Of a DNA stretch of 64,000 bases, positions 1-34,114 are shown one piece after another. The notes under the pieces are model-generated. The model was given only the letters and a program-made list of their open reading frames with translations, had not been told where the DNA came from and ran no database searches. Source of the stretch: Planctopirus ephydatiae (GTDB taxonomy: Bacteria; Planctomycetota; Planctomycetia; Planctomycetales; Planctomycetaceae); contig NZ_CP036299.1 of the NCBI RefSeq assembly GCF_007752345.1, positions 4,808,001-4,872,000 of the forward strand, written 5' to 3'. Positions within the stretch are counted from its first letter, which is position 1. Each line of letters begins with the position of its first letter. The position numbers were made by a program, and so were the translations under genes.

Positions 1-743
1 CGTGCGCGACAGGGCTATATAATATTGGGTTTGGATACGAATTGGTTGCTGCCGGCCTGCACGACTGCTGCATTTGCGGAGGTGTCGAAGAGCAAAGCTG
101 GCAGCGTGTAGGGGTCAGCGCCGACAATTCCCTGGGGATGCCGACGACCTTCAATGAAACACCCAAGGCCGCTTGCCGCCCGTTCGACCGTGACCGCCAA
201 GGGTTTATCATTTCTGAGGGCAGCGCGGCCGTGGTGCTCGAGTCTTATGACGCCGCAATGGCTCGGGGCGCGCCGATCTATGCAGAGATCGTCGGCTACG
301 CGGCCGCAAATGACGGACACGATTTGTATGTGGCCAATGGCGATGCGATGCGTCGCGTTGTGCTGAGCGCGCTCTCGGATGCCGCGAAGCTTGGAGTCGC
401 GAATATCGATTATATCAACGCCCATGCAACCGGCACGCCGATCGGTGATGCAATCGAAGCTGGTGTGATCCGTGAGATTTTTGGAACTGGTCCAGCCGTC
501 AGTTCCTGTAAAGGTGTGACCGGCCATTCGCAAGGAGCCGTTGGCGCTCAGGAAGTCGTTTACACCGTACTGATGCTGAGAAACGAATTTCTTGCGGCGA
601 CAGCGAATCTCGAGCATCCGTCGGACGACTGTGGTGGGATTGATCATGTCCGTACCCGGCGCGATGTCAGGATCGACACTGCTCTTACCATGAATAATGG
701 ACTCGGTGGAACCAACGCCGCCATGATTCTTCGAGCCCTCTAA
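1..743 (+). CDS. Beta-ketoacyl synthase, left-truncated by the window edge
   Basis: This is the C-terminal part of a FabB/FabF-type ketosynthase, which condenses an acyl thioester with a malonyl-ACP-type extender. The frame is open from base 3, so the ATG at 42 is internal and not the real start. The active-site Cys is the first visible codon (bases 3-5, C-A-T-G-L). The two catalytic His regions follow as NAHATGTP and CKGVTGH, so the C-H-H set is complete. About 246 residues are visible, against roughly 400-420 for the family, so about 165 residues lie outside the window. The stop is at 741-743, only 17 bases before the next KS, which implies co-transcription. The cluster therefore continues leftward. 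Confidence 0.93.
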   Translation, partial: CATGLYNIGFGYELVAAGLHDCCICGGVEEQSWQRVGVSADNSLGMPTTFNETPKAACRPFDRDRQGFIISEGSAAVVLESYDAAMARGAPIYAEIVGYAAANDGHDLYVANGDAMRRVVLSALSDAAKLGVANIDYINAHATGTPIGDAIEAGVIREIFGTGPAVSSCKGVTGHSQGAVGAQEVVYTVLMLRNEFLAATANLEHPSDDCGGIDHVRTRRDVRIDTALTMNNGLGGTNAAMILRAL

Positions 744-760
744 GAGCGAAGGAACCGAAA

Positions 761-1978
761 ATGTTTCGACGAATTGCCATTACTGGCATGGGTATAGTCA
801 ACAGCTTGGGCAATAGCGTACCAGAAGTTCTGGGATCGCTTCGAGCAGGCAAGTCGGGCGTAAGCATTGTCGATGAGTATCGTGAACTTGGATTTCGAAG
901 CGCACTGGCTGGAACGCTGAAAGACTTTCAGCCGCCTGAGATCGACCGCATCTATCTCCGGCAAATGGGCGACAACGGAGTCCTCACCACGGCGGCCACT
1001 TTCGAGGCGATCCGCGATGCCAATCTGAGCGACGAACTCATTCAGCATTCGAGAACCGGTGTCATCGTCGGGAATTCGGGAACGTACAAAGAAACCTATC
1101 AGCTCTGCCATCAACGGCGCGATTTGGGAAAGAAAATCACAGGCTTGGCTCTGCCTCGAGCCATGGCATCAACAGTGTCAGCCAATCTTTCGGTGTTGCT
1201 CAAGACCAAAGGACATTGCTTCACGGTTAATGGCGCCTGTGCCGGGGCCGCTGTTGCAATTGTGCAGGCCGCCTGGGCAATTCGCCTGGGTCTTCAGGAT
1301 CGCATGATCACCGGGGGCGTTCACTGGGGATCATGGGAATTTGACTGCTTGTTCGACGCCCTGCGGGTCTTTTCACGACGTGAAGACAATCCTACGGCGG
1401 CTTCGCGTCCATTCGACGCCGATCGGGATGGGCTGGTTCCTTCCACCGCAGCGGGTATGGTCGTCTTAGAGGACTGGGAACATGCCATCGACCGCGGTGC
1501 GAAGATTCATGGCGAATTGATCGGCATCGCCGTGAACTCCGATGGCCAAGAGATGACCACTCCCTCCGGCGAAGGAAGTGGCAGATGCATCAGGCTGGCA
1601 CTTGACGACGCGGGCATCGGTCCTGGCGATATCCAATACATTAATGCCCATGCAACCGGAACAAAGCTGGGTGATGAAATCGAAGCCCGCACGATTGGCG
1701 AGATCTTTGGCCAGACGCCGTATGTGAGTTCGACCAAGTCTGGAACAGGCCACGAAGTCAGCGCTGGCGGTGCCACCGAGCTCATCTACACCCTGCTGAT
1801 GATGAAGCACGGCTTCATTGCGCCCACGCTGAATTTGGAGCGGATCGATGACCAATGTGCCATGATTCGACATGTCCCCTGCCATCCGATTGAAGCCGAT
1901 ATCCAGCTGGCGATGAGCAATTCGTTTGGATTTGGGGGAGTGAACGCTGTCTTGCTTGTACGGAGAGTCGAAACATGA
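761..1978 (+). CDS. Beta-ketoacyl synthase (catalytic KS)
   Basis: This is a complete 405-residue KAS I/II-type ketosynthase. It opens with the usual RIAITGMGIV strand. The nucleophile is C160 in VNGACAGAAV, the first His is H297 in NAHATGT, and K326 and H331 lie in STKSGTGHE, so all catalytic residues are present. The start ATG has GGAA a few bases upstream and lies 17 bases after the previous KS. Its last codon overlaps the next KS by four bases (ATGA), implying translational coupling. Expected role is decarboxylative Claisen condensation on an ACP-bound chain, paired with either neighbouring KS. No acyltransferase or ACP domain is fused, so this is a dissociated system. Confidence 0.94.
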   Translation: MFRRIAITGMGIVNSLGNSVPEVLGSLRAGKSGVSIVDEYRELGFRSALAGTLKDFQPPEIDRIYLRQMGDNGVLTTAATFEAIRDANLSDELIQHSRTGVIVGNSGTYKETYQLCHQRRDLGKKITGLALPRAMASTVSANLSVLLKTKGHCFTVNGACAGAAVAIVQAAWAIRLGLQDRMITGGVHWGSWEFDCLFDALRVFSRREDNPTAASRPFDADRDGLVPSTAAGMVVLEDWEHAIDRGAKIHGELIGIAVNSDGQEMTTPSGEGSGRCIRLALDDAGIGPGDIQYINAHATGTKLGDEIEARTIGEIFGQTPYVSSTKSGTGHEVSAGGATELIYTLLMMKHGFIAPTLNLERIDDQCAMIRHVPCHPIEADIQLAMSNSFGFGGVNAVLLVRRVET

Positions 1979-3231
1979 CGCAGCTCCCTCACTCAGCCGC
2001 GGTATCGCCCACAGGTCGGAGAGTTGTTCTGACCGGGTTGGGGATTCTCAGTCCTATCGGAGTCACTTGCGACGCAGTCTGTGCTCATTTGCAAGCGCCT
2101 TGCCACCCGGAAGAAGCGTCCGCCAGTGCCATTCCAAACGACGGATTTCTGGGCCACCTCAAGGGTTGGGAGCCAGAATCCGATGAGAAACTGGGGCGGC
2201 TCTCGGTCGGTGCACAGTATGCGGTGCAGGCAGCGGTCGACGCTTGCGGGCAAGCGCGGCTTGATTCGTCATCCGTCGACACTGCGCGCGTTGCGGTGCT
2301 GATGGGTACGATGTTTAGCAGCATGGCTGAAGTCGTCAGGATCAAACAACTCCTTGAAAGTGGGAAAGTCCGCCGCGCGGGTGTGAGGGGTACCACCAAA
2401 CTGATGAACTCGGGTCCGGCCGTCAATATCGCGGCCAGTCTTGGCCTGCGTGGTCCGGTTATGTCGAACTCGACCGGGTTTGCGTCCGGAATGGATAACA
2501 TTGGCTGTGCTTACGAATGGGTCCGTGACGGTCACATCGATATTGCCGTCTGTGGTGCGTCGGAAGAAAACTGCGCACCGTTTCTGGGCAAGCAGTTCAC
2601 CCTGTGGGAACGCTCGCCTCGGGGCGTCGATCTGAACCGCGAAGTCACCATCCGCCCCTTCGATGCGCGTCGAGAAGGTTCTATTCTTTCGGCTGGGAGT
2701 GGAGTTGTTGTACTAGAGTCGGCCAAGCATGCTCTCCGCCGCGGTGCGCGCCCCCTTGCGGAAATCTGCGGATATGCAAGTTGTTTCGACGTGGAACCCG
2801 GCCCGGATTCATTTTCGACCGCCTTGACTCGCGCGATTGAGAGAGTCTGTCGACATGCCGAGCACAGCGGCGTCAACCGTCTGAGGCAGGTGGTTTCCGG
2901 TGCCGCTGGATTCCATTTAGCCGATGCCGATCATGTGCTCGCCATCCGAAACAGTTTGGGAATGTCGGCTCGGGTCACCTCCACAGCCGGTTGGTTGGGG
3001 CATGGCTTGGCGGTGAGCAGCGCGTGGAATGTAGTCCTTGCCTCATTGATGCTCTCGAACGGCTTTCTTATCCGTTGTCGGGGCTTGACTGAACCGGGCG
3101 CCGACTGTCGCGGGGTCGAATACGTAATGAATGGAGAAATAGCATCGGATCCGGGCCTTCTGATTACCGCAGGAGGACTTGGATTTGCCAGTTGCCTCGC
3201 TCTTCAGCGTTTGTCGCCCATGTCGGACTAA
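1975..3231 (+). CDS. Ketosynthase homologue without active-site Cys (chain-length-factor-like)
   Basis: This 418-residue protein has the thiolase/KS fold signature (RRVVLTGLGILSPIG at the N-terminus, GGLGFASCLAL at the C-terminus) but has lost its catalysis. The nucleophile region reads SNSTGFASG, placing Gly (about residue 168) where the previous gene has Cys. The NAHAT-type His motif is replaced by VSGAAGFHLA. The KSxxGH motif is degraded to TAGWLGHG. Such KS-beta or chain-length-factor partners are known from type II PKS and aryl-polyene systems, where they dimerise with a catalytic KS. The ATGA overlap with the upstream KS supports a KS/KS-beta pair. Assignment as a chain-length factor is an inference; the typical Gln of classic factors is not seen. 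Confidence 0.85.
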   Translation: MTQLPHSAAVSPTGRRVVLTGLGILSPIGVTCDAVCAHLQAPCHPEEASASAIPNDGFLGHLKGWEPESDEKLGRLSVGAQYAVQAAVDACGQARLDSSSVDTARVAVLMGTMFSSMAEVVRIKQLLESGKVRRAGVRGTTKLMNSGPAVNIAASLGLRGPVMSNSTGFASGMDNIGCAYEWVRDGHIDIAVCGASEENCAPFLGKQFTLWERSPRGVDLNREVTIRPFDARREGSILSAGSGVVVLESAKHALRRGARPLAEICGYASCFDVEPGPDSFSTALTRAIERVCRHAEHSGVNRLRQVVSGAAGFHLADADHVLAIRNSLGMSARVTSTAGWLGHGLAVSSAWNVVLASLMLSNGFLIRCRGLTEPGADCRGVEYVMNGEIASDPGLLITAGGLGFASCLALQRLSPMSD

Positions 3232-3264
3232 GAATGCCAACATGGTCTGGATCGGCTGTCTCTA

Positions 3265-4164
3265 TCAGATCGGTTCCACAACGGACTCAATCGGCTCGCC
3301 CTCGACAGGAGGACGATCCAGAGAAAGTCGAGCACGCTCCTCCGCGATCCTATCCTTTAGCATTTGCACTTCAAACATTCGGTCGGCAATTTTGCGTTCG
3401 AGCAGTGCGATATGACGACGCCGATTCCAGATCACACGATGAATCGGCTCGTAGGCCAATATCCCAAGAATCACTCTCCGAAAGAGGATCACCACAAGCG
3501 CTGAAAACAATGGTGACAGCAGGATCATCGCTGTCGTGCGGTGTTGCGGAAACATCTTTCGTCCAATTATGGAGTACAACACGCAACATTCGACCACCGC
3601 AGCGATCCAGATCAGCTTCATCGTTAATTGAAAGACGGGCAACTTCGGAGCTGCCAGCAACGATTCGCCACTGTTCGCAATGGTTAGGATGATGCCCAGG
3701 AACACCAGCAGCGCCACCGTCAAGCCTACAGTAACAGTTGCCGAAACGAGTTTGGCCAGTCGTGCATCAGGCAGAGTCCACCCCATTCTCGGAAGCCAGA
3801 TGAACGATCCGGTGCCCAGGTCACGGCAAGTCAGTCGAAAAGGTGTAAGAATTACGGTCCAAGCGAATTCCCGGGAAATCGTTGGGCAAATGATACGATA
3901 AGTTAGATACTCCATGAGACAAACGACCTGAACCGCAATGCAGACCCAGATCGACCACCGATCCAAGCGAACTGCATCACGTGACACAATGGTGACCACC
4001 AGATCATGAAATGCCGCCAGATACAACACGATTGCGAAAAACATGGGGGCAGCCAAATGCCGATTGAGCAGAACCAGCCATGACGGTAGCTCGCGATCCG
4101 GGCACCTGTTGCTTTGGCTTGTCTTGACTTCCGCATCGGTACGGTTAACGGCATCAATCCCCAT
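3265..4164 (-). CDS. Multi-pass membrane protein with C-terminal coiled coil (paralogue A)
   Basis: I do not recognise the family. The protein (about 299 residues from the ATG at 4164; longer TTG-initiated frames reach 4218) has about five hydrophobic segments. It carries a conserved cytosol-like patch FRLTCRDLG followed by WLPRMGW, and ends in a charged helix of coiled-coil type (ALLERKIADRMFEVQMLKDR). The divergent neighbour starting at 4310 has the same layout: LNRHLAAPMFF here matches MNRFIAPLFF there, and LRLTRRDLE and a terminal coiled coil recur. It converges on the third KS with a 33-base gap. A membrane role for the lipid/polyketide pathway is possible but unproven. Confidence 0.75.
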   Translation of the reverse strand: MGIDAVNRTDAEVKTSQSNRCPDRELPSWLVLLNRHLAAPMFFAIVLYLAAFHDLVVTIVSRDAVRLDRWSIWVCIAVQVVCLMEYLTYRIICPTISREFAWTVILTPFRLTCRDLGTGSFIWLPRMGWTLPDARLAKLVSATVTVGLTVALLVFLGIILTIANSGESLLAAPKLPVFQLTMKLIWIAAVVECCVLYSIIGRKMFPQHRTTAMILLSPLFSALVVILFRRVILGILAYEPIHRVIWNRRRHIALLERKIADRMFEVQMLKDRIAEERARLSLDRPPVEGEPIESVVEPI

Positions 4165-4309
4165 GCCGCGACACTCCCCTCGAAATCCAAAGGGAACTCC
4201 CGCCTGCTCCCATTGCAAAGCATGACATGCAGGACAGTATTGTACCTTTGGTATTGAACAGACGCGAGACTAATGGTGATTTCCGGATTTTGAATGCGGC
4301 GAACTTATC

Positions 4310-5110
4310 ATGCAGGATCCCTCCCAAGTAACGATCTTTCAGCAGCGACTTGTGGCCATGAATCGTTTCATTGCACCGCTGTTTTTTGTGCTGTCACTGG
4401 GCTTCCTCGCGTTGACTTACCATGGCTTGCGGAGCGTTGGCCAGTGGGAGGGACCACTTCCGGAAACAACTGCCTTGTGGGGACTGATCTGGCTTTATCC
4501 CCCCTTCATTGTCGAAGCCTGCTTCTATGCGTGGTCTGGATTACCGGGAGGCCGACAGTACCGCTGGTCTGCGCTTTTGCCTCCATTACGATTGACCCGC
4601 CGCGACTTGGAAATGCAGCACTTGATCTGGTGGCCCCTCAGGAACTGGAAGCCGGCCGATCGGCAACTTGCCAGGCATGTGATAGTCTGCGAGGCAGGGA
4701 TCTTATGGTTCGGCGGAATCGCGCTGATCGCTACGGCAGCAATAAGTTCGGCCAGCATCACTTCCGTGGAGTCATTTACGAACCACTTCGTCATCGACGC
4801 GATTTTCGGCGCGATGTGGGTCGTGGTGATGGCGGACACTTGTGTGCTGCTGATAATACTGCCGCGCGCTAGGCGTAAGAGCCTGGTCATTACCTGCCTG
4901 CCCATTCTGGCATCGCCGGTAGTACCACTACTGGTTGTGGCGTACTTGCCAAGGCTGGTGCGCCGAACCATGGCTTGGAATGAGTTGCACCACTACGGGA
5001 TTCGCGACCCCGCCGAGCGACTCAGGCTTTTGGATGCTCAGTTGCAGCGGCGAACGGCCGAAGTAGAAGAGTTGCAAGATCAGCTTCGCCGCGAACAACA
5101 ACTCAATTAA
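4310..5110 (+). CDS. Multi-pass membrane protein with C-terminal coiled coil (paralogue B)
   Basis: This 266-residue protein of unrecognised family is paralogous to the divergent upstream gene. Shared features are an opening hydrophobic helix after MNRFIAPLFF, the motif LRLTRRDLE plus a following WW/NW aromatic patch, later hydrophobic helices, and a terminal heptad-like helix (LLDAQLQRRTAEVEELQDQL). The two genes are divergent with about 145 bases between preferred starts, so a shared bidirectional promoter is likely. The alternative start is the ATG at 4358 in MNRFIAP. The Glu/Gln-rich C-terminal helix could mediate dimerisation of the A and B proteins. Confidence 0.75.
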   Translation: MQDPSQVTIFQQRLVAMNRFIAPLFFVLSLGFLALTYHGLRSVGQWEGPLPETTALWGLIWLYPPFIVEACFYAWSGLPGGRQYRWSALLPPLRLTRRDLEMQHLIWWPLRNWKPADRQLARHVIVCEAGILWFGGIALIATAAISSASITSVESFTNHFVIDAIFGAMWVVVMADTCVLLIILPRARRKSLVITCLPILASPVVPLLVVAYLPRLVRRTMAWNELHHYGIRDPAERLRLLDAQLQRRTAEVEELQDQLRREQQLN

Positions 5111-5184: not shown

Positions 5185-5940
5185 CTATTCAGCGGTGGGT
5201 TCGCCTTTGAGACTCTCTTGGGTATAAACATTGATTGCCCGGATGGCTTCTTCAGCGTCCGTGGTATCGATGAGTACATCGCCATCTCGAAGGACAATCT
5301 GCCGGCGTGTGGCCCGCGCGACATTGTGATCGTGCGTTACCAAAATCACCGTAATCCCATTCTCACGATTCAGCCGATGGAATAGTTTGAGAACATCACT
5401 CCCAGTTCGTGAATCGAGATTTCCGGTCGGTTCATCAGCGAGCAGAATGGGCGGATCGTTTGCCAATGCCCTAGCAATCGCAACTCGCTGTTGCTGACCA
5501 CCAGACAACTGACTGGGATGATGATCGTGACGGTCTCCCAAGTCGACCATTTGGAGCAGTTCAGCCGCACGCTGCCGGCGCTGACGGGTCGTCAACTTTC
5601 CGGAATAGAGCATCGGCAGCTCTACATTTTCCAGAGCGCTGGTCCGGGAAAGGAGGTTGAAGTTTTGAAACACGAAGCCAATTTTCTGATTGCGAATTCG
5701 AGCGAGGGCGTCGGGATTCAGCTTTTCAACCTCGACGTCGTCCAGCCGATATGTTCCCGATGTTGGACGATCCAGACAGCCAACCAGATTCATCATGGTG
5801 GACTTTCCCGAACCCGATGGCCCGACCAGTGCCAGGATCTCCCCCTTTTGAATCTGGAGGGAGACACTCCTTAGAGCGTGCACTTCCACATCCTCGATCC
5901 GGTACAGCTTGCCTATACCATCCAGATCAATAAGCGCCAT
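5185..5940 (-). CDS. ABC transporter ATPase, MacB/LolD type
   Basis: This 251-residue nucleotide-binding subunit energises export by the adjacent permease. It has Walker A GPSGSGKST, signature LSGGQQQRVAIARAL, Walker B ILLADEPTGNLD and the H-loop VTHDH, all intact and correctly ordered. The TGNLD and LFHRLNREN segments are typical of the MacB/LolD/FtsE subfamily. The frame extends to 5958, but MALIDLDGIGKLYR at 5940 is the natural start. It is the last gene of a minus-strand set: membrane fusion protein, permease, ACP, ATPase. MacB proteins are usually one polypeptide; here ATPase and permease are separate genes with an ACP between them. Confidence 0.93.
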   Translation of the reverse strand: MALIDLDGIGKLYRIEDVEVHALRSVSLQIQKGEILALVGPSGSGKSTMMNLVGCLDRPTSGTYRLDDVEVEKLNPDALARIRNQKIGFVFQNFNLLSRTSALENVELPMLYSGKLTTRQRRQRAAELLQMVDLGDRHDHHPSQLSGGQQQRVAIARALANDPPILLADEPTGNLDSRTGSDVLKLFHRLNRENGITVILVTHDHNVARATRRQIVLRDGDVLIDTTDAEEAIRAINVYTQESLKGEPTAE

Positions 5941-6033
5941 AAAAGCATAACCTTCCAACGGCGGGTATAATGAGTGCTGATTCTGCTCGGGTCGCCCCGG
6001 AACCGTTTAGGTTAGCCGCCGTTGACATGCATT

Positions 6034-6267
6034 CTAGCTGACCTTCGACTTGACGAATTCGACCATCTCGCCATAGGTCCGCACGTTCTGAGCATCTTCA
6101 TCCGAGATATCGATGTCGAACTCGCTCTCAAGAGTTGCCACTATCTCGACCATGTCGATCGAGGTTGCTCCCAAGTCGCTACGCAGCTTTGCCTCTGGAA
6201 CGAGTTCGCTTTCCGGAACTTCCACATTGCTCAGGATGATCTTCTTAATGCGGGATTCGATTTCCAT
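6034..6267 (-). CDS. Acyl carrier protein
   Basis: This is a stand-alone ACP of 77 residues from the ATG at 6267 (the frame stays open to 6309). The phosphopantetheine Ser lies in LGATSIDMVE, followed by the acidic helix TLESEFDIDIS and the closing YGEMVEFVKSKVS, all classic for bacterial ACPs. It would carry the growing chain made by the ketosynthases at the left end. Its position is unusual: it sits between the exporter permease (6513-7754) and the exporter ATPase (5185-5940), in the same orientation. That suggests coupling of chain synthesis and export. No phosphopantetheinyl transferase is visible in the window. Confidence 0.93.
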   Translation of the reverse strand: MEIESRIKKIILSNVEVPESELVPEAKLRSDLGATSIDMVEIVATLESEFDIDISDEDAQNVRTYGEMVEFVKSKVS

Positions 6268-6512
6268 TGACTCGACCTTTTGATTGACAAATTCGGCTTG
6301 GCGGCACACTTGATCGATACGTTTTCGCGTTTGTCAGAACGACGCCCGACACCCACAACACGATTCCAACTGGAGATTTAAAGCCCCCTGTGTCATAAGC
6401 AATTGAAAGCAACGGTCAAGCCTGAATCAACTCTATTCCCGCGTGAATCTCCGTTCCCTCCAGAGTTTCTTTCCCGAAGCCGTCAAATCGCGCCAATGTC
6501 CATGCCATGCAG

Positions 6513-7754
6513 TTATTCGTAACGCAACGCATCGATCGGATTGAGCTGGCTGGCCCTCAGAGCCGGATAGTACCCAAAAAAAACACCAATCATCGCCGAA
6601 AACAAAAGTGCCACAACTGCCGCTTCCACCGAAATGATGTACGGCCACGACGTATTGGGTGTCAGCCAATTGACAAGCATTGTCAGCCCGGCAGATCCGG
6701 CGAGCCCCAACGCAATGCCTATAAAACCTCCGAGACATGAGAGCACGACTGCCTCAATCAGAAACTGACGAAGAATATCGGACGATCTCGCCCCAATCGC
6801 CATGCGGATTCCGATTTCGCGTGTTCGCTCAGCCACCGAAACGAGCATAATGTTCATGATCCCCACCCCACCCACCACGAGCGAGATCGCCGCGATGGCC
6901 GTCAACATCAGGGTAATGGCACCCATGATCACCTGCAGCATCAGTGCAATTTCCGTTGTACTTTGAATTCGAAAATCTGCATCGCGGCCTGGATTGATTC
7001 CATGTCGCTGGCGGAGAAGTGCCTCAGCTTCACGCGCGGCCACGGTCGCAAGCGATGGACTGGAGGTAGACACAAGAATGGCATCGACATTCGAACCGCC
7101 CCCCGGGCGAAGTCGCTTGGCTGCAGTGGTATAGGGAATCAACACAATGTCATCGTGATCTTGACCGAACATGCTGACGCCCTTTGGCTCCAGCACACCG
7201 ACCACCTGAAACGGCGCATTTTTGACCCGAATCGTTTTGCCGATCGGATCTTCGGCCTGAAACAATTCGCGTACGACCGTTTGCCCAAGGACGCACACTT
7301 TCGCTGACGAGGCGATGTCCCGCTCAGACAGGAACGATCCCAGTGCCAAGTTCCAGTTCCGTACGATCTGATAGTCCTTCCCGACTCCAAAGGTTGTCTG
7401 CGGGTTCCAGTTGGCGCTCCGATAAACAACCTGTCCGCTGACCCCCACCAGCGGAGAGACCGCATTGACCGACGGGCAGCTCTCTCCTAGGGCGACCACG
7501 TCTGCAATACTCAAAGATCCGACGTCGACCGTTCGAATGCCTCCCTTCTGCATCGATCCGGGCAAGACGGCCAGCATGTTTGTGCCCAGCGTTTCCAATT
7601 GTGCCTGGACAAGCTGACTGGCACTTAGACCAATGGAAACCATCGCCGTTACGGCGGCAATGCCGATGACGATCCCCAAAATGGTCAGGCCGGCGCGAAG
7701 TCTATTCTTCGACAGCGCCCGAATCGCAATTCGCATCGACAGCCAAAAACCCAT
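6513..7754 (-). CDS. ABC transporter permease, MacB/FtsX type
   Basis: This inner-membrane permease has about 413 residues. The N-terminal helix follows RALSKNRLRAGLTILGIVIG, then comes a long periplasmic domain (about residues 45-275). Three C-terminal helices include GGVGIMNIMLVSVAERTREI, the hallmark of FtsX/MacB permeases. The end, PALRASQLNPIDALRYE, is also characteristic. The preferred start is the ATG at 7754; a GTG at 7766 is possible. It lacks the fused N-terminal ATPase of MacB, which is supplied by the gene at 5185-5940. Together with the membrane fusion protein upstream and the outer-membrane protein at 9996 it would form a tripartite efflux machine. Confidence 0.93.
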   Translation of the reverse strand: MGFWLSMRIAIRALSKNRLRAGLTILGIVIGIAAVTAMVSIGLSASQLVQAQLETLGTNMLAVLPGSMQKGGIRTVDVGSLSIADVVALGESCPSVNAVSPLVGVSGQVVYRSANWNPQTTFGVGKDYQIVRNWNLALGSFLSERDIASSAKVCVLGQTVVRELFQAEDPIGKTIRVKNAPFQVVGVLEPKGVSMFGQDHDDIVLIPYTTAAKRLRPGGGSNVDAILVSTSSPSLATVAAREAEALLRQRHGINPGRDADFRIQSTTEIALMLQVIMGAITLMLTAIAAISLVVGGVGIMNIMLVSVAERTREIGIRMAIGARSSDILRQFLIEAVVLSCLGGFIGIALGLAGSAGLTMLVNWLTPNTSWPYIISVEAAVVALLFSAMIGVFFGYYPALRASQLNPIDALRYE

Positions 7755-7809
7755 TCGACACCACACACCTAAGAGGAAACTACGCGATCTAGGCGATCAT
7801 TCATCCGTC

Positions 7810-13983: not shown

Positions 13984-14071
13984 GGTTAACCCATGGCTCC
14001 ATACCAGACGACACATAACCACCTAGCGAACACTTCTGCCAGAGGAACTCCCCTCGTTCTCTGAAAAGCCA

Positions 14072-16403: not shown

Positions 16404-16519
16404 GACACCACTCTCAAAAAGGCAACTCAGCCACGTTCGGCCAACTGTTACGGCAAATTCCCACACAATGCAAGCAGTGTATCATAGCACCACTGCAAAT
16501 TATTCAAACCCGTACGAAA

Positions 16520-17587
16520 TTAAACCTCTTCGTCAAATCCAACCAGATCCCTCGTCTTCTGAAACAACCGCAGCAGATATTCCTGACGCTTCTGAATGTC
16601 CGGCAACAACTCAAATTTTCGAGGTTGAGTATAAGGATTGAGGTTAACATCCGCAGGACAAGTCTCGCCAACATGAGCCAGAATTCGCTGCACGTGCGAC
16701 TGAGCATCCACCATCAATTCCTCATACCCGACAAATATATAATCTTTCCGCTCAACAAATGGAAGATCCTTAAAGAGTTGTCCCTCGGCCACTTTCATCC
16801 GATGAATGAGCCAAGAATGCCCCGGATTAATTCCGAAGCAATCTGAAAAAGCACCTTTCATCAATCGCTTCACCACGGGTGATTCGGTGATTGAGTAACG
16901 CTTAGACATCATTAGCATCAGCTTATTCGCCTCGCCCTTCTGAAAAATCCTCAATTGAGAATCAAGAAGTCGCAATGGATGCCGAAAGAGGAAGACAAAC
17001 TTCGCGTTTGGGATCTTGCTTTTAATGAATAGAAAATTGCGATAATCAGGACAGCTTTTCAGGACCAGCGGAACCGATGGATCACTAACGTATTGAACCT
17101 TTTGACAAAACCTTACAAACGATTCCATATATCTCGAACGAAGCACTCCGTCCCCGTGGACAAATGCCAAATACAACACATAATCAATAGAAGTGTCAGC
17201 TCCAGCTGCAATATTGTCGATACCACGAGTCAGAACACCTCACCCTGAAAAGTCGCTATTGATCCTGCCTCTCTCCGATATTTCCAACCCCATTACACGA
17301 TCATGCAAGAGGCGGTTTCTATTCAGAACATGCTGTAACTTTACATAGTTTATACGCCTAGTCCGAGCGAGCAACTCGGAGAAAAGTGTTGTACCAGAAC
17401 GATAATCCGAGACAATGAAGAGTGGTGCAATATTTGTATCCCGCGAAAGCTTCTGGTAACCCTGATCGAGATCCGGGCCCCCGCTGACACGAACAAACGG
17501 GGACAAGAGTGATGCCACGAAGGCCGCTCGTGATTCAACAATCATGGGCTTCGCATTTGCTCCATTGCTCATAACTCCACGATCCAT
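16520..17587 (-). pseudogene. Sulfotransferase 2 with in-frame TGA stop
   Basis: Two open segments (16520-17239 and 17243-17587) lie in the same frame, separated only by TGA at 17240-17242. Joined, they match sulfotransferase 1 end to end: FIVSDYRSGTTLFSELL, then AKFVFLFRHPLRLLDS and FVGYEELMVDAQSHVQRIL. Counting from RSGTT, the stop falls at position 54, exactly opposite a Trp in sulfotransferase 1 (FASWDIST here FSG-stop-GVLT), so TGG to TGA is the simplest origin. No indel is needed. The likely start is ATG at 17587 or 17572, downstream of the 17634 stop of the preceding gene. It could be a recent pseudogene, a sequencing error, or a read-through gene. Confidence 0.85.
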
Positions 17588-17633
17588 TTTTCTCGCTTTG
17601 TTCGTCTTTTGATTAATTTTCGACAAGTTCAAA

Positions 17634-19094
17634 CTACTGGCCAGGAACTTCTGTCGAGGCCGATGGCATAGGCCGCGACGACTCTTCCAGAGAGCATAAC
17701 TCCTGAGATATCCCGTCGAGAATGAGTTCGCACACTTCAGGCTTTGCGAGGCTCTCCGTGGCACCCAGGGAAATCGTCACCGCACCGTTGAACTGGCTCA
17801 TAAAGAAACCCATCCCGGCGGCGCGGTATATCGAGACAGTCGCTAACGCATCGACGACCTTAACCCCATCGAATTCGGGAAACAACGGCGCCATCTCACC
17901 GGCATTGGCGAGTCCGCAGGCACGAACTAAGCCACGCAGCTGTGACCTTGTTCCCCACTTGAGCAATCGATGTACCCAGCCGAAAGGAACTGGCAGCAGG
18001 AGCCATCGGATCACTGGCATGGCCAATATCACACCCGGATAGTTAAGACCCAGAAGACGCTGCTTATGACTCCTCTTAAACTGCTCATTGATCACCTCAA
18101 CAACTTGCTCAAGGCTGGCATCGGCAGGTAGCGGCACAAACATCCGACTCGGGCCAGACAGATTCGCGACCGGAGACAACTCTCGCTCCTTCGCCGGGAG
18201 ATAGTTACGATGATCGACTGTCGTTCCTACACCCAGTCCTTCCTCTCCTGTTACTCCAATATGGCGACGAAGTGTCCGATACAACACAGCCAGCATGACG
18301 ACCGTCATGGTCGTTCGCTTTCGCTTAGCCAGTTTTGCGGCAGCGACACCCACATCTGGTTCGAGGCGACGAATGTAGTAATGGCCGCCATCTCGCCTTT
18401 CACCGACCTGATCAGCTTTCAGTAACCAGAGGTTGCGGGTCTTGCGCTGATTGGCCAGAAAGCTGCCGATCACTCTGAGACGATGACTGATGGGAAAATG
18501 GCGAATAACTTCACTGTGGTCTCGCGACCGAAGATTTACAGTTGGTGCGACATCGGGGCCAGTGCGGCCCTGCAGATAATTTTTGCTGACCATTGCAATG
18601 ATTTTCATCAGCGAGGGAGCGTCGCCGGCAACGTGATTCATTTTATAGCAGAGCGTATCTCGGTCGCCGCGAATGACCCGCACGTGAATCATCGGATCAA
18701 CGCGGGGATCCATCTCGGCTTCCAGAAACTCTGCCAGTTCGCGCTCGGGATAGACAGACTCGACAACGGTGCATAAATCCATACTCTCATGATCGTCACG
18801 GCGTTGCCAATATGGTCGATACCAATGCTCCACGAAACGGCAACCGAGAATCGGCTCGGCGACGACTACCATTCGCAGCGCCCTCTGCAGATGTGTAGCG
18901 TCGATCCTTCCGTCATAACGGACAATCACATGCACCTGTTGCGTATTCGCGTGCCCAACAAGGAACTGGCACATGTCAGCAAAGTTTGCCGGGAATCTCT
19001 GGGGACAAACTTGACGACCAAAACTCCACCTGGCCGAGGGTGAAAACTCGGCAACGGAAGACTCTGAGTTGGACAAAGTCGGCATCGGTTCCAT
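17634..19094 (-). CDS. Condensation-domain acyltransferase A (PapA/AATase-like)
   Basis: This stand-alone protein of about 486 residues belongs to the condensation-domain acyltransferase superfamily. The HHxxxDG motif appears as NHVAGDA in CYKMNHVAGDAPSL, keeping the second His and the Asp. A second conserved block is LGVGTTVDHRNYLPA followed by SPVANLSGPSRMFV. Family members esterify alcohols with acyl groups from carrier proteins or CoA; PapA proteins do this for mycobacterial lipids. It is strongly similar to the gene at 21353-22846 (shared CRFVEHWYRPYWQRRDD). The frame extends to 19115 through a GTG, but ATG at 19094 is preferred. Substrate is unknown. Confidence 0.82.
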   Translation of the reverse strand: MEPMPTLSNSESSVAEFSPSARWSFGRQVCPQRFPANFADMCQFLVGHANTQQVHVIVRYDGRIDATHLQRALRMVVVAEPILGCRFVEHWYRPYWQRRDDHESMDLCTVVESVYPERELAEFLEAEMDPRVDPMIHVRVIRGDRDTLCYKMNHVAGDAPSLMKIIAMVSKNYLQGRTGPDVAPTVNLRSRDHSEVIRHFPISHRLRVIGSFLANQRKTRNLWLLKADQVGERRDGGHYYIRRLEPDVGVAAAKLAKRKRTTMTVVMLAVLYRTLRRHIGVTGEEGLGVGTTVDHRNYLPAKERELSPVANLSGPSRMFVPLPADASLEQVVEVINEQFKRSHKQRLLGLNYPGVILAMPVIRWLLLPVPFGWVHRLLKWGTRSQLRGLVRACGLANAGEMAPLFPEFDGVKVVDALATVSIYRAAGMGFFMSQFNGAVTISLGATESLAKPEVCELILDGISQELCSLEESSRPMPSASTEVPGQ

Positions 19095-19228
19095 AGTAAA
19101 ATAAGCCCTTGACACATAGCAGCATACGCTCGCGTCAATTCATACAGTGCCACTGCGTTTTCGTCAATTAGGAGCAACGCCCACCTTGCAATAAACCACA
19201 TCAGAAATCGTATTACCTGGCATAACAC

Positions 19229-19966
19229 CTACATATAAACACCACCATTGATTCGGATCACCTGCCCCGTAATAAAGGCCGCTCTTTCCGACGCCAGAAA
19301 CGATACAAGAAACCCAACCTCTTCGGGACGACCCGCACGCGCCAGCGGAGTGAGTTCCAGAAGTCTTGCTTTGTTGACTCCATGCAGACTAATAGACTCT
19401 GTCTCAAACAATCCCGGTGAGATGCAGTTCACCGTGATGTCTTTTCGACCCAACTCACAAGCCAAGGATTTCGTCAGGCCGATGACGCCAGCTTTCGTCG
19501 AGCAGTAAACTACTGAACCGGCAGCACCAGCCTCAGCCGCCGAACTGGTAATATTGATAATGCGATTTCCAGAACACCCCCCACTCCACGTCTTCACAAC
19601 TTCGCAAGTGCAATGAAGAACACCCGCCAAGTTAACCTGTAATGATTGCTCTATATCGCTCGGCTTGACTCTTGCCAATGGCTTTAAAACGCCACTCGCT
19701 GCATTGTTAACAAGCACGTTAATCCTTCCAATATCACGATCAATGTTCCGTACAGCGGTCCTCACCGCGCTCGCATCTGAGACGTCAAACTGAGCAATTT
19801 GACATCGTCCGCCCAATGCATTTATTGCTTCCTGTGTCTGAGCAGCACCCTCAGCATCACTTCGAAAATTTACGATCACAAGCAATCCGTCGCGTGCCAG
19901 CTCGAGAGCAATTGCTCTACCCAAACCACGTGACGCACCTGTAACCATTGCAATCCTCGCAGCCAC
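19229..19966 (-). CDS. Short-chain dehydrogenase/reductase, FabG-like ketoreductase
   Basis: This 245-residue classical SDR has the Rossmann motif TGASRGLGRAI, NNAA around residues 88-91, and the catalytic Ser in NITSSAAEAG. The YxxxK pair is in YCSTKAGVIGLTK, and the C-terminus FITGQVIRINGG is typical of FabG. It probably reduces 3-ketoacyl-ACP to the 3-hydroxy form using NADPH, serving the KS set. A GTG at 19966 gives the complete first strand; the first ATG, at 19948, would cut into it. It lies between acyltransferase A and the methyltransferase on the same strand. A tailoring oxidoreductase role is the alternative. Confidence 0.9.
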   Translation of the reverse strand: MAARIAMVTGASRGLGRAIALELARDGLLVIVNFRSDAEGAAQTQEAINALGGRCQIAQFDVSDASAVRTAVRNIDRDIGRINVLVNNAASGVLKPLARVKPSDIEQSLQVNLAGVLHCTCEVVKTWSGGCSGNRIINITSSAAEAGAAGSVVYCSTKAGVIGLTKSLACELGRKDITVNCISPGLFETESISLHGVNKARLLELTPLARAGRPEEVGFLVSFLASERAAFITGQVIRINGGVYM

Positions 19967-20438
19967 TTCACAGACCCTCCAAAGGCATCATGGATCTCAC
20001 CACGCAAATGGCACACACTACAAATTCACCGGAACTCACAACCCAAGACACCTCACAACCTACCGGCACAAACTGTGGCGACCGCGACAACACGGAGAAT
20101 CACAATACGTCTATTAGAAAGAGAATGTAAAAACCAACTACTACGAGACGAGTACACTCATCTCTCATCACTAAAAGCCATGTGAAAACAGCTTGTCGAC
20201 ACTCAACTCGAAACAACAACACAACATATCGCCGACATATCATCTATAAAAACAACAAACACAATACACTCCCGCGAGCGAACCAACCCAAAGCATCCAC
20301 AACTTTCGGGACTGCTCCCTCTTCAACATCTGAGCACTCAGAACCTTAAGCAACAAGCACAATCATGACCACAGAAAGCCTTACGCTTGAACACTCTTCT
20401 GAGGCTCGCAATTGCGGACACCTTGCATAGGGGACATT
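19967..20438. other. AT-rich spacer without a gene
   Basis: These 472 bases separate the methyltransferase from the SDR. The plus strand is rich in A and C with many CACAAC-type runs. No coding frame or hairpin stood out. It may hold a promoter for the SDR and downstream genes. Confidence 0.45.
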
Positions 20439-21260
20439 TTACTTCTCCATGGACTTTCGCATAATCATGCTATAACCATAGCCATTCCATAACGTTTTGA
20501 TTTCTGACTCAGAAACACTGGGAGGAATCGCCTCAAAAGGAGTTGGCGATGGAATGGTGATAGAGGGAAAGGTTCTTGCGAGCTCCTTCCCAATCGCTTG
20601 TTCTGCATTCTCGTGCGTAATCCATTCGTCAGTTACAACCACCCTTGACCCCGGCTTCGCTACACGAAGCAGCTCCGAAAGCGCCAACCGCTGATCTCGA
20701 AACTCGTTAATAGCACCTGTATGAAATACAACATCAAAACTGTTATCTTGGAACGGCAAGTTCTCCACAAGCCCGACCATTAGGATGTAATCAAGGCCGG
20801 CGGACTTCAGTTTCTTTCTCGCAACTCGTAACATTTCTACCGAGATGTCTACACCACAAACACTCCAGCTTGAAACCATTTCCGGATTCTTCTCGCAGAG
20901 ATATCTGATCTCGCTTGCCGTCCCGATTCCAACATCTAAGATCAAAGACCCTTGATCAAGCTCTAGCGCATCGAGGTACTCGCTGCGGATCCTGTCAGGC
21001 TCTAGGCCAACAATCTCAGCAAACTCCTTTTCTAGCATGTCGTAAAGACGCGCACCGAGACGCGTCTGCTGCTCCATCTCGGGATAATCCTCAATGATCT
21101 GATCTTTTCCAACAAGTTCGACGATTCCATCAACTCCGTCACAATGGTACCCGCAGCCTTCACAGCAAAATGAGACTACTTTGTCCAGTCCGTATACTAG
21201 TCGCACCTCGGAATGAGCGTCTCCGCAAGTCGGACACCTCAAGATCTCAGACTTCATCAT
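20439..21260 (-). CDS. SAM-dependent methyltransferase with N-terminal zinc ribbon
   Basis: This protein has about 273 residues. Residues 1-45 form a Trm112-like zinc ribbon (CPTCGD, then CCEGCGYHC, then DGIVELV). A class I methyltransferase domain follows with motif I LILDVGIGTASEIRYL, the motif II acid in CGVDISVEMLRVARKK, and the post-motif segment LPFQDNSFDVVFHTGAIN. RlmA/UbiE-like small-molecule methyltransferases share this layout. It sits between the two condensation-domain acyltransferases, implying product methylation. A decayed duplicate is at 30143-30885. Adjacent ATGs at 21260 and 21257 are both possible starts; a TTG at 21272 is less likely. Confidence 0.88.
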   Translation of the reverse strand: MMKSEILRCPTCGDAHSEVRLVYGLDKVVSFCCEGCGYHCDGVDGIVELVGKDQIIEDYPEMEQQTRLGARLYDMLEKEFAEIVGLEPDRIRSEYLDALELDQGSLILDVGIGTASEIRYLCEKNPEMVSSWSVCGVDISVEMLRVARKKLKSAGLDYILMVGLVENLPFQDNSFDVVFHTGAINEFRDQRLALSELLRVAKPGSRVVVTDEWITHENAEQAIGKELARTFPSITIPSPTPFEAIPPSVSESEIKTLWNGYGYSMIMRKSMEK

Positions 21261-21352
21261 TACGCTCCACAAGAAAACTTTTCACTTCCCCTCATCTCTG
21301 AGGATTTGTTACGACCACCGGAAGTTTCGACAAGAAACATATCTACTCTAGT

Positions 21353-22846
21353 CTACACTTTTTCAAAGCCCCCATTGCCCCGAGCATCCATTGCCGATAA
21401 CTCTTCGCAATTAAGTGAAAGGAGTTCCTCTTCAATCCCATCTAGAATCATCTCACACACGTCCGCTCTGACAAGACTTTCCGTCGCCCCGATGGCGATT
21501 GTAGTTGTCCCCTTGAACTGGGTAACAACAAACCCAATTCCTGCAGTCCTGAAAATTGCGGCGGTCGCAAAGGCATCGATAGGCTTCACATCACCGAAGA
21601 CATCAAGGACCGCTGCAAGATTTCCTACGTTAGCAATTCCTACCGCACGGGTTCTCCCAAAAAGCCGAGGACCCGCTACACGCTTGAGGATGGATTGTAG
21701 TACTCCAAACGGAACCATTAAGAGCAAGGGTCGCACAAATGGCATCGACAGAAAGACCGCCGGGTAATTTAGGCCAAGTAGGCGACTCTTAAGGGCTTCT
21801 TTGAATTGCTCCTTAATCACCTCCACAACTTCACCTAGGCTGGCATCTGCGGGTAGATCAACGAACATTCGACTCGGGCCGGATAGATTCGCAACCGGCG
21901 AAACCTCCCGCTCCCTTGCTGGAAGATAGTTTCGGTGATCGACAGTCGTTCCTACCCCAAGTCCATCGTCTCCGGTTGCTGGAAACATGCGCCTCATTGT
22001 CTTGTAAACCGCCGCCAGCAGGATGACCGTCACCGTAGCCCGATGCTGCTTTGAGAACCTCCATATTGAGTCCGATATCGACCGATCTAGCTTTCTAATG
22101 AAATATCTTCCCTTTACCCGGTCGACTCCCACATCATTCACGTCAAGCAGCCATAGATTCCTGGTCAGCCTCTGATTGGCAAGAAAGCTTCGGGCAACTC
22201 GAATCTTTTCGCTTAACGAGAAGTGCTTTAGGACTTCACTGTGGTCTCGGGACCGCAGATTTGGCTCAGGCAGAAATGAGGGTTCAACTGATAGCTTCTG
22301 ATAGTATTCACCTATGAGCAGAACAATCTTAAGCAGAGAGGGTGCATCGCCTACTAAATGGTTCATTTTGTAGCATAACGTGTCTTGGCACTTGCTACGA
22401 AAGACACTCACCTGAATGAGAGGGTCTTTTGAAGGATCAATTTCGGCCTCCATGAATTCTGTCAGTGCCGACTCCGGGTTCTCAACATTCATGACAATGC
22501 ATAAAGCCATGCAGTCCACATCGTCTCGGCGTTGCCAATAAGGCCGATACCAGTGTTCAACGAAACGGCACCCAAGAATCGGCTCAGCGTAGATCACCAG
22601 CCGCATCGCCTGCTCCAAGCGGCTAGAATCAATGTGCCGGTCGAATCGGACGATAAGATTACCATGCTGCGTATTCGCCTGGCGGACCATAAACTGGCTC
22701 ATGTCAGCGAATGTTGCGGGAAAGCGCTTTGGGATTCGTTTTAGCAAGTCAAGCTGCCGAACCTTAAGCATTTCGGAGTCAGACAATTTGCCAGGGGCTG
22801 TCGTCGGCAAGGCACTAGATTTCATAGACAACTTCTCGTTTCCCAT
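21353..22846 (-). CDS. Condensation-domain acyltransferase B (PapA/AATase-like)
   Basis: This 497-residue paralogue of the gene at 17634-19094 is similar throughout: CRFVEHWYRPYWQRRDD, CYKMNHLVGDAPSLLKI and DDGLGVGTTVDHRNYLPA recur almost unchanged. The HHxxxDG element is again N-H-x-x-G-D-A. Within the pathway it may acylate a second position or use another acyl donor. The start ATG at 22846 is supported by homology with the A copy beginning in the RFPANFADM/RFPATFADM region. The next gene upstream, 23122-24162, is 275 bases away, so this may be a separate transcription unit. Confidence 0.82.
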   Translation of the reverse strand: MGNEKLSMKSSALPTTAPGKLSDSEMLKVRQLDLLKRIPKRFPATFADMSQFMVRQANTQHGNLIVRFDRHIDSSRLEQAMRLVIYAEPILGCRFVEHWYRPYWQRRDDVDCMALCIVMNVENPESALTEFMEAEIDPSKDPLIQVSVFRSKCQDTLCYKMNHLVGDAPSLLKIVLLIGEYYQKLSVEPSFLPEPNLRSRDHSEVLKHFSLSEKIRVARSFLANQRLTRNLWLLDVNDVGVDRVKGRYFIRKLDRSISDSIWRFSKQHRATVTVILLAAVYKTMRRMFPATGDDGLGVGTTVDHRNYLPAREREVSPVANLSGPSRMFVDLPADASLGEVVEVIKEQFKEALKSRLLGLNYPAVFLSMPFVRPLLLMVPFGVLQSILKRVAGPRLFGRTRAVGIANVGNLAAVLDVFGDVKPIDAFATAAIFRTAGIGFVVTQFKGTTTIAIGATESLVRADVCEMILDGIEEELLSLNCEELSAMDARGNGGFEKV

Positions 22847-23121
22847 GCTACTCTTGAACCAACCGTCAGATCAGTCGTGCATACTTATCGATGATAGAAG
22901 AACACTCCAGCCTATCGATAGCGCTATTTAGAGGATAAAATATTCTATACATCGTAAAAAGAATGGTAGTCATTCATAATCCACCCATTCCAGCTCAACC
23001 GATATTGAGTTAGAGAGGCTTTTAGGAGCCGCTGACTTGGCATTTTTGATCTAGTAACTTTGACTGACCTCCGCAGCTCTAGCAATCAAAATAATTGCCT
23101 CACGATTTGGAGATTCACCCT

Positions 23122-24162
23122 TTAAGGCACCAGGACAATCTTCCCGGCCACGCCGCCGCTGGCCAGCAGTTCGTGCCCTCGGACAATCTCCTTGAGCGGC
23201 AAAAGTTCACCGATGACAGCCTTGACCTGACCGGACTCCACAAACCGCAGCGAATCTCGGGACTCCGCCGTGGTTGCAAAATGCGAACCCAGATAGTTCT
23301 GCTGCTTTGTCCACAGAAAGCGGATATCAAGCGGGGCTGTGAAGCCGGTGGTCGCACCACAAGTCACGATGGTCCCCCCCCACCTCAGGCAATGCGTACT
23401 CTCCTCCCACGTTGCAGCGCCAGAATGTTCAAAGACGATGTCGACGCCCCGCTTGCGGGTTATCTTCATGACTTCCCTTGTGATACGCTGCGACTTGCGA
23501 TTCAGTACATAGTCTGCGCCGAGGTCGGAAACGAGCTTTGCTTTATCTTCACTACCAACAACTGCGATCGACTTAGCGCCAAACGCGCGAATCAGCTGGA
23601 TGGCCGCTGTTCCGATTCCTCCAGCAGCTCCCCAGACGAGAATGCAGTCTCCAGCTCCCATGCGAGCTCGCGTGACGAGCATTCGCCAAACAGTCGCCAG
23701 CACGTTGGAAATAGCTGCAACTTCCTCAAACGAAGTGTTGCCCGGCTTGGGAATCACATTCCTCGCAGGAACGGTGGCATACTCGGCTTCCGAACCTTGA
23801 TTCGGCCCTGTCTCAAACCCCCAGATGCGAAATTTGGGGCAGAACATGGGCCAGCCACGAACGCACTCGACACAGTCACCGCATGAGAAGGCGCCATTGA
23901 CCACTACTTCGTCACCGACAGCCACAGTGGTAACGTTAGGCCCAAGTGCTTCGACAATTCCTGCGCCATCGGTTCCCGAAATATGCGGCAGAGGAAAGTC
24001 CATTCCCGGCACGCCCTGCCGCGCCCAGATATCGTTATAGTTCATCGCCGCGGCTTTGATCCGTAGCAGCACCTCGCCATAACCCGGTTCAGGAATGGGA
24101 AGATCATCTCGATACTGGAGCACTTCTGTGCCGCCATGTCGATCGAATGTTACACCCTTCAT
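23122..24162 (-). CDS. MDR-family oxidoreductase (enoyl/quinone reductase-like)
   Basis: This medium-chain dehydrogenase/reductase has 346 residues from the ATG at 24162 (a TTG at 24174 is also open). The catalytic domain contains AAMNYNDIWARQGVPG and a structural-zinc-like Cys cluster (FSCGDCVECVRGWPMFC). The nucleotide-binding domain has VWGAAGGIGTAAIQL. The AMNYND segment is close to enoyl-thioester reductases such as crotonyl-CoA reductase and to quinone oxidoreductases. In this context an enoyl reductase completing the KS-KR-DH cycle is plausible. The structural Cys cluster also fits zinc alcohol dehydrogenases, so the substrate remains open. Confidence 0.88.
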   Translation of the reverse strand: MKGVTFDRHGGTEVLQYRDDLPIPEPGYGEVLLRIKAAAMNYNDIWARQGVPGMDFPLPHISGTDGAGIVEALGPNVTTVAVGDEVVVNGAFSCGDCVECVRGWPMFCPKFRIWGFETGPNQGSEAEYATVPARNVIPKPGNTSFEEVAAISNVLATVWRMLVTRARMGAGDCILVWGAAGGIGTAAIQLIRAFGAKSIAVVGSEDKAKLVSDLGADYVLNRKSQRITREVMKITRKRGVDIVFEHSGAATWEESTHCLRWGGTIVTCGATTGFTAPLDIRFLWTKQQNYLGSHFATTAESRDSLRFVESGQVKAVIGELLPLKEIVRGHELLASGGVAGKIVLVP

Positions 24163-33940: not shown

Positions 33941-33948
33941 CTCAAAAA

Positions 33949-34041: not shown

Positions 34042-34114
<73 letters not shown>

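Follow-up and report, generated by a model that had tools for sequence, protein, structure and literature searches.

The stretch of DNA studied here, referred to as the window, comprises 64,000 nucleotides of the planctomycete Planctopirus ephydatiae and corresponds to genome positions 4808001-4872000 of a single 5,214,061-bp contig (the source genome is coded G000). It carries part of a biosynthetic gene cluster that continues to the left of the window, and the sequence points strongly to a dialkylresorcinol (DAR) as the outcome of the core pathway. On balance, we favour the view that the cluster directs the synthesis of an exported DAR lipid that is glycosylated, sulfated, acylated and methylated, that it possesses its own MacAB-TolC-type exporter and that it resides on an island at a tRNA-Val gene. 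The gene content, the family assignments, the active-site residues, the retention of this gene combination by a second genus and the borders of the island were all observed directly.

The DarA/DarB core and its ketosynthases

Genes were checked using a listing of open reading frames (ORFs), a simple coding-score gene caller, from which the gene starts are taken, and matches to Pfam and NCBIfam. The initial annotation of this DNA had treated window positions 1-24162 as one locus and its chain as a reducing polyketide with aryl-polyene-like logic. The genes it described do exist, but the cluster is truncated by the window edge and runs for about 11 kb beyond base 1 to the left with genes for a polyketide synthase (PKS), FabF, an acyl carrier protein (ACP), DarA and DarB. 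Because DarA and DarB are encoded there, we read the scaffold as a dialkylresorcinol and not as a generic reducing polyketide. The idea that the window itself contains an entire type II PKS pathway was likewise rejected, since the extension shows that the core lies to its left.

Read rightward, genome positions 4793849-4808743 (locus L010 together with the window edge) begin with a FabH-type β-ketoacyl-ACP synthase III (KASIII) on the minus strand (NF006829, 381.8 bits against a cut-off of 249), followed on the plus strand by the PKS, FabF (PRK07314, 422.3 against a cut-off of 387), the ACP, a DarA-like protein of 342 aa, DarB and a ketosynthase (KS). The ORFs from the PKS to DarA overlap by four bases at every junction, and these four genes are therefore apparently translation-coupled. 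The PKS has 2276 aa, with AMP-binding (fatty acyl-AMP ligase (FAAL)-like), KS, acyltransferase (AT), dehydratase (DH) and ACP domains. Pfam gave no ketoreductase (KR) match in this protein, and a KR hidden within it was rejected, as residues 1851-2180 match no Pfam family up to an E value of 5. Given a PKS without a KR, the short-chain dehydrogenase/reductase (SDR) at window 19229-19966 and the medium-chain dehydrogenase/reductase (MDR) at 23122-24162 would be its natural partners in trans.

The DarB candidate exceeds the cut-off of the StlD/DarB family model NF005293 (515.5 bits against 450) and matches the crystal chains of StlD (5gk0 and 5gk2) with an E value of about 1e-118. C126, H302 and N331, which we take to be its catalytic residues, are invariant across four planctomycete DarBs and align with StlD. 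A profile scan with the alignment of these four proteins was used to collect relatives, and the best 80 of at least 552 confirmed ones were kept, with flanks of up to 10 kb on each side (44 of the 80 loci are at least 20 kb long). A DarA homologue (E≤1e-8) was present in 73 of these loci, leaving seven without one; of the 73, 72 have it on the DarB strand, no more than 500 bp upstream of that gene, and the remaining one has it adjacent to DarB on the opposite strand. The planctomycetes G093 and G342 also have a DarA homologue just upstream of DarB, at 30-31% identity.

An AlphaFold2 model of the 342-aa protein, built from a 50-row alignment (pLDDT 92.9), contains a flavodoxin-like domain, with a helix of about 78 residues at the C terminus. 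The best Foldseek matches were PnpB, WrbA and flavodoxins, and several lower matches were receptor chains, probably recovered through the helix. The modelled fold fits an oxidoreductase of the flavin mononucleotide type that could act as a DAR-aromatase, which is the function given for DarA, with DarB as the DAR-cyclase, in the accessible part of PMC3949708. Heterologous expression of darB and darA from Chitinophaga pinensis yielded DAR, according to the text available from PMC3992019.

The KS beside DarB is FabB-like and lies on the plus strand at genome 4807523-4808743, starting 477 bases left of the window so that its 3' part occupies window 1-743. Its 233-aa in-window part was scanned with hidden Markov models (HMMs), and the full length was found through a genome search with PF00109 and then aligned (PF00109/PF02801). 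A second FabB-like KS follows on the same strand (761-1978; Pfam, NCBIfam, tblastn and alignment) and is 77% identical to the KS adjoining DarB in G027, a genome from another genus of the same family. Both keep the Cys-His-His triad, as does FabF in the alignment. The third gene (1975-3231, plus strand; Pfam) encodes a chain-length-factor-like homologue in which the Cys is replaced by Phe and the first His is lost, so that the two catalytic KSs and one Cys-less homologue named in the initial annotation are borne out. Its start overlaps the stop of the preceding KS by four bases, and KS/chain-length-factor pairs often overlap in this way.

The chemical steps, their order and their substrates are what we infer from the gene set as a whole, and the product is a predicted one. 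The FAAL domain of the PKS would activate a fatty acid, and the KS-AT-DH-ACP part, assisted in trans by the SDR as KR and perhaps by the MDR as enoylreductase, would lead to an α,β-unsaturated acyl-ACP. FabF, the FabB-like KSs and the ACPs may provide a β-ketoacyl-ACP. By analogy with published work on DarB from other bacteria, DarB would then join both chains by Claisen and Michael steps to give a 2,5-dialkylcyclohexane-1,3-dione. DarA, with its flavodoxin/WrbA-like fold and long C-terminal helix, would oxidise the dione to the dialkylresorcinol, as its published counterparts do. The hydroxyls of the ring or of a sugar could subsequently be decorated by the GT1 glycosyltransferase, the sulfotransferase(s), the PapA-like acyltransferases and the methyltransferase described below, the PapA-like enzymes perhaps being fed by ACP-bound acyl chains. 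The MacAB-like exporter would finally move the product outward.

Tailoring, carrier and exporter genes of the window

The exporter is encoded on the minus strand by an ABC transporter ATPase of the MacAB type (5185-5958; PF00005; 79% identity to G027), a MacB-type permease (6513-7766; PF12704/PF02687; 77%) and a membrane-fusion protein (7810-9054; PF16576/PF13437; 58%). Between ATPase and permease, also on the minus strand, stands an ACP (6034-6309; PF00550; NF002148, 78.1 against a cut-off of 71) in the same slot as in G027. The TolC-like outer-membrane efflux protein (9930-12083; PF02321; 61% to G027) is found on the plus strand, opposite to the surrounding minus-strand run.

The genes that follow are all on the minus strand. 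A type II thioesterase (12669-13436; PF00975, with GHSFG and GQH) and a MaoC-type dehydratase (13510-14022; PF01575) precede an intact sulfotransferase with an RSGTT motif (14072-15064; PF13469) and a GT1-type glycosyltransferase (15186-16466; PF06722/PF00201). A second sulfotransferase frame (16520-17764) carries an in-frame TGA; a single frame continues on both sides of the stop and both parts match G027 sulfotransferases. Next come a PapA-like condensation-domain acyltransferase with the motif NHVAGD (17634-19115; PF00668, 2.5e-11) and the FabG-like SDR ketoreductase, the candidate trans-KR for the PKS (19229-19966; PF13561/PF00106; TIGR01830, 210.5 bits, under the cut-off of 297.75). An S-adenosylmethionine-dependent methyltransferase (20439-21272; PF08241) separates these from another PapA-like protein (21353-22846; NHLVGD; PF00668, 5.4e-17), which is 56% identical to the first, and the run closes with the MDR-family reductase, a candidate trans-enoylreductase (23122-24162; PF00107/PF08240) whose best NCBIfam match, a crotonyl-CoA carboxylase/reductase, is below cut-off. 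Both PapA-like proteins have HxxxD and exceed the PF00668 cut-off (43.4 and 62.1 against 30.6), and both miss that of PapA_C (PF16911; 17.0 and 26.7 against 30).

The ORF calls and profile matches thus agree with what had been annotated from the letters alone, namely an ACP, a KR-type SDR, MaoC, an MDR reductase, a type II thioesterase, GT1, a methyltransferase, two condensation-domain acyltransferases and a MacAB-TolC-like exporter, all four components of which were found. The sulfotransferases claimed for this span need qualification, as the gene at 14072-15064 is intact but that at 16520-17764 is broken.

Two membrane-like proteins without a significant Pfam match lie between the KS genes and the exporter, one on the minus strand (3265-4218) and its paralogue (27% over 256 aa), divergent from it, on the plus strand (4310-5110). 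ORFs between 24.2 and 30.9 kb of the window are low-scoring. Beyond them, on the same island and on the plus strand, is a further sulfotransferase (30940-32226; Sulfotransfer_3, 428 aa; PF13469, 1.8e-32), with 30% identity to a G027 protein at C26:213532-214830.

A second carrier, the island and the alternative readings

In G027, DarAB, the PKS, KS, the ACP-bearing exporter, sulfotransferases, GT1 and two PapA-like genes are found together in one rearranged locus. Identities to G027 are 54% for the PKS (1657 columns), 68% for FabF, 51% for the ACP, 58% for DarA and 77% for both DarB and KS, with 41% for the thioesterase, 37% for GT1 and 25-34% for the two PapA-like proteins. There, 0.8 kb separates the PKS from the ACP-containing exporter operon, the two being divergent, and GT1 and two sulfotransferases stand between two KS genes. 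One G027 sulfotransferase directly precedes GT1 and a second follows an epimerase-like gene; the GT1 gene of the window is flanked by a sulfotransferase frame on either side. Since the gene order differs between the two genomes, the togetherness of these genes goes beyond inherited synteny. G027 also holds further sulfotransferases, sulfatases and an MMPL protein, and the same locus includes a 3277-aa KS-KS-AT-ACP(x3)-KR-DH-DH protein with an adjoining gene resembling phosphopantetheinyl transferases (L042:2059-12665).

Co-occurrence was followed in three genome sets: an initial set of 59 that contained G000, 170 genomes of the family and a phylum-wide draw of 392. Some DarB match was seen in 54 of the 59, mostly weak; only G027 exceeded 41% identity (77%). 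G012, G013, G016 and G026 reached 37-41% over near full length, and G025 and G049 matched in part. Within the family, DarB at E≤1e-40 was found in eight genomes; besides G000 and G027 there are six at 37-41%, of which five have it in open frames of 636-673 aa that appear to encode longer or fused proteins (L014, L015, L016, L017 and L159). The PapA-like query at E≤1e-30 matched two of the 170, G000 and G027, the same two in which DarB has 77-100% identity, and at 1e-20 two more family genomes appear, at 23-26% and adjoining a KASIII. If the two genes were independent, these pairs would coincide by chance with a probability of about 7e-5, a value calculated with thresholds chosen after the data had been seen. 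In the phylum draw, DarB at 1e-40 was present in four genomes including G000, and PapA at 1e-30 in G000 and G400 (24%), the latter not being among the four DarB carriers. In view of the G027 locus and the co-occurrence within the family, chance proximity of the two halves was rejected, and the transferases and exporter probably belong to the DAR cluster. A single pathway with its own exporter and sulfo, glyco and acyl tailoring, as had been proposed initially, is therefore the better reading; rather than occurring consistently apart, the KS set and the transferase set stand together in G027, the comparison being based on two genomes.

The exporter family by itself was rejected as a pathway marker, given that permease homologues occur in 58 of the 170 family genomes, 56 of them, at 41-61% identity, besides G000 and G027. 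The 77%-similar, ACP-bearing form was observed in G000 and G027 only, and the exporter looks to have been recruited from a common planctomycete pump.

The cluster lies on a 62-kb island at tRNA-Val(CAC) (genome 4779296-4842084), with 62,102 bp between direct repeats that are 85% identical over 351 columns. The left repeat is at genome 4779296-4779633, and the right one, at window 33736-34084, runs into tRNA-Val(CAC) (34042-34114, minus strand), so that its last 43 bases are the 3' part of the tRNA; the left copy has two differences there. In the congener G001 the site is empty and the flanks are contiguous, positions 4010001-4018023 corresponding to genome 4771602-4779633 and 4017674-4024913 to 4841736-4848994. 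The same 350 bp of G001 match both island ends, and G001 has one intact tRNA. The direct repeats and the empty site therefore identify the island as an insertion at the 3' end of the tRNA, and the congener provides a natural negative control; the empty site was seen in G001 only, as no contig of G002 or G003 crosses it. None of the five PF00589 matches in the genome lies on the island, which thus lacks a tyrosine integrase, serine recombinases not having been searched for. Base composition gave no signal of foreign origin (GC 0.547 in the island against 0.542 in both flanks).

Other features were noted on the island. Window positions of about 33268-33461 hold a dispersed repeat of the genus, of about 200 bp, with many matches in three congeners, mostly at 70-90%. 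The left island carries a sulfur-handling-like set (L009:10783-19051) of pyridine-nucleotide-disulfide oxidoreductase/rhodanese, methyltransferase-DsrE fusion and metallo-beta-lactamase/rhodanese proteins, parts of which have DNA matches of 65-71% elsewhere in G001. A 754-aa protein with EF-hands, a redoxin domain and a copper monooxygenase C-terminal domain is encoded at L010:514-2778.

The strongest of the alternatives, which we regard as rather unlikely, is that two pathways share the island, the plus strand encoding a DAR/type II-like core and the minus strand an independent system that makes and exports a sulfo-glyco-acyl lipid. Several findings that weigh against our own reading fit such a division. 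The plus and minus runs are convergent in the window, and in all ten neighbourhoods sampled from the 56 further genomes the exporter homologues have no KS or ACP match alongside. Distant PapA-like proteins (22-26%) adjoin a KASIII in G436, G437 and G400, none of which has a DarB match at 1e-40. The 80 DarB loci contain no sulfotransferase or GT1 homologue, which is weak evidence with flanks of up to 10 kb, and PapA-like proteins occur in three of them; the PapA HMM used for that scan was trained on a set including the Fischerella copy, so that this locus and its near copies had to match. However, both parts are together in G027, with the ACP-bearing exporter operon near the PKS and the GT1 and sulfotransferases between KS genes, and PapA-like genes and a close DarB coincide within the family. 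In addition, the minus-strand run holds the ACP, SDR, MaoC, MDR and thioesterase that a KR-less PKS and the KSs would need.

Further points count against a single, complete pathway to a decorated DAR lipid. DarB misses the cut-off of NF053539 (resorcinol_DarB, a model of the 'exception' type; 433.8 against 550), and the DarA-like protein of 342 aa is named by no NCBIfam or Pfam match. FAAL is present in only five of the 80 DarB loci, with strong matches in L064 and L094. The whole set was found in one other genome only, so that the co-occurrence amounts to two genomes of one family, which differ in gene order, and the resemblance between them is uneven: the best G027 match to the Cys-less KS is only 28%, which places this gene outside the conserved core, and that to the first KS (<1-743) is 38%. 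No close MaoC, methyltransferase or MDR match was found in the G027 stretches searched, the first PapA-like copy of G027 has Asn at the catalytic His position, and the sulfotransferase at 16520-17764 is interrupted where its relatives in G027 are open.

A pigment of the flexirubin or arcuflavin kind, in which an aryl-polyene acid is esterified to the DAR, is a clearly less probable product. The window does hold KS and Cys-less KS, KR, DH, thioesterase and methyltransferase genes, and the flexirubin (flx/dar, Bacteroidota) and arcuflavin (Azoarcus) clusters also join DarA/DarB to dissociated KS/ACP/KR/DH, methyltransferase and transport genes in the accessible parts of PMC3992019 and PMC3949708. 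Table 1 of PMC10923784, as far as that source was available, moreover counts one antiSMASH 'resorcinol' and one 'arylpolyene' cluster for P. ephydatiae spb1, these being class counts only. The flexirubin and arcuflavin clusters, however, have aryl-polyene starter enzymes, whereas the planctomycete genome is without an ammonia-lyase: PF00221 (aromatic/tyrosine ammonia-lyase) had no match in it, the control having matched in 5 of 14 genomes and a chorismatase starter not having been searched for. A flexirubin-type product with an ammonia-lyase starter was rejected on this ground. An MDR enoylreductase would also remove double bonds, no LolA- or deacetylase-type gene was seen among the proteins scanned, and the window SDR misses the FlxB SDR model NF053542 (194.9 against 340). 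Compared with flexirubin and arcuflavin, the planctomycete cluster adds the FAAL-PKS, MDR, sulfotransferases, GT1 and PapA-like genes.

We find it improbable that the DAR or its cyclohexanedione precursor is itself a secreted signal or antibiotic, with the tailoring genes serving some other target or self-protection. Photorhabdus uses DAR signals, and a dedicated exporter is present here. In Pseudomonas chlororaphis, according to the accessible part of PMC6403133, a 2,5-dialkylresorcinol has antifungal activity. The sulfotransferases, GT1 and two PapA-like genes nevertheless suggest a decorated lipid. Decay of the island, leaving no product, is the least credible reading, for although the in-frame TGA at 16520-17764, the missing tyrosine integrase and the low-scoring ORFs between 24.2 and 30.9 kb point that way, the core biosynthetic frames are open, that of the 2276-aa PKS included, and the inspected KS, FAAL, AT, DH and ACP motifs are kept.

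Relation to known systems

Mycobacterial sulfolipid-1/PapA systems work by a logic of FAAL, iterative PKS, PapA-type condensation acyltransferase and sulfotransferase. The planctomycete cluster follows the same logic, with PapA_C matches below the Pfam cut-off. Unlike that of sulfolipid-1, its scaffold is of the DAR type, and its PKS scores 569 against a Pks2 cut-off of 2400.

Cyanobacterial DAR clusters, those of the bartolosides (brt) and of the Nostocales loci L060-L065, likewise have a DarA and DarB core, and the nearest DarB relatives among the matches listed come from these Nostocales loci (53-55% identity). The accessible text of PMC8406957 describes DarA/DarB in cyanobacterial DAR-type clusters, and that of PMC7081238 describes bartolosides as glycosylated, chlorinated DARs. 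With a GT1-like gene about 16 kb from DarB, the planctomycete cluster shares with brt the presence of a glycosyltransferase in the DarAB cluster. Three of the 80 loci, from the Hapalosiphonaceae (Westiellopsis L060, Fischerella L061 and Pelatocladus L063), also have a tandem PapA-like condensation pair; BLAST at 1e-3 gave no alignment between these proteins and those of the planctomycetes, and the pairs were therefore probably recruited independently. When scanned, L061 showed PfaD-, KS-, KR/DH-, flavin-halogenase-, SBBP-repeat and PapA-like genes, and L062 a KS-AT-ACP-thioesterase protein, a type III PKS, methyltransferases and an SBBP-repeat protein. No counterpart of these SBBP-repeat proteins, presumably CylK/BrtB-like, or of the halogenase-like protein of L061 was seen in the planctomycete cluster, in which none of the proteins scanned with Pfam matched a halogenase or SBBP-repeat family above cut-off, some ORFs being unscanned and no CylC/CylK query having been used. 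A homologue of the planctomycete sulfotransferase was absent from the matches in six Nostocales genomes, in a search without a positive control.

DarB trees were built with 35 of the 80 loci, one of 42 rows and then one of 39 rows without the long-branch rows G423, G012 and G016. G000 and G027 form one clade (100/100). They are nearest to Nostocales by identity, but that grouping had support of 63/80 in the 39-row tree and was unresolved in the 42-row tree; a cyanobacterial donor was therefore rejected, and no donor is claimed. The 39-row tree does not settle the position of G093 and places G342 with rows from proteobacteria at moderate support (86/94 with L072).

Closer to home, planctomycete alkylresorcinols are produced by a type III PKS, as described in the accessible part of PMC10896814. 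These lipids are resorcinolic and from the same phylum, but they arise from a single type III PKS, bear one alkyl chain and follow a different enzyme route, so that the described planctomycete resorcinolic lipids found so far differ in origin from the product proposed here. Table 1 of PMC10923784, within the part available, lists no resorcinol cluster in either P. limnophila or P. hydrillae, in agreement with the three congeners that we searched, which have no strong DarB. A literature search from which subscription papers were largely absent returned no recognisable account of such a DAR gene set. The gene content and linkage of the cluster appear new. The initial view that no planctomycete pathway of this kind had been described must nevertheless be moderated, and detection of the cluster is not new, because the antiSMASH class counts for this genome, resorcinol and arylpolyene, are already in print in the accessible table of PMC10923784.

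The ring-making core looks to be of a known kind, and it is the surrounding decorations that look new. More tentatively, the cluster may represent a previously unknown class, a sulfated DAR glycoside with acyl chains added by PapA-like enzymes, exported through a MacAB-TolC system whose operon includes an ACP, and spread among planctomycetes by tRNA-targeted islands. Its nearest known systems are the flexirubin/arcuflavin and cyanobacterial bartoloside-type clusters, and not a stand-alone reducing polyketide.

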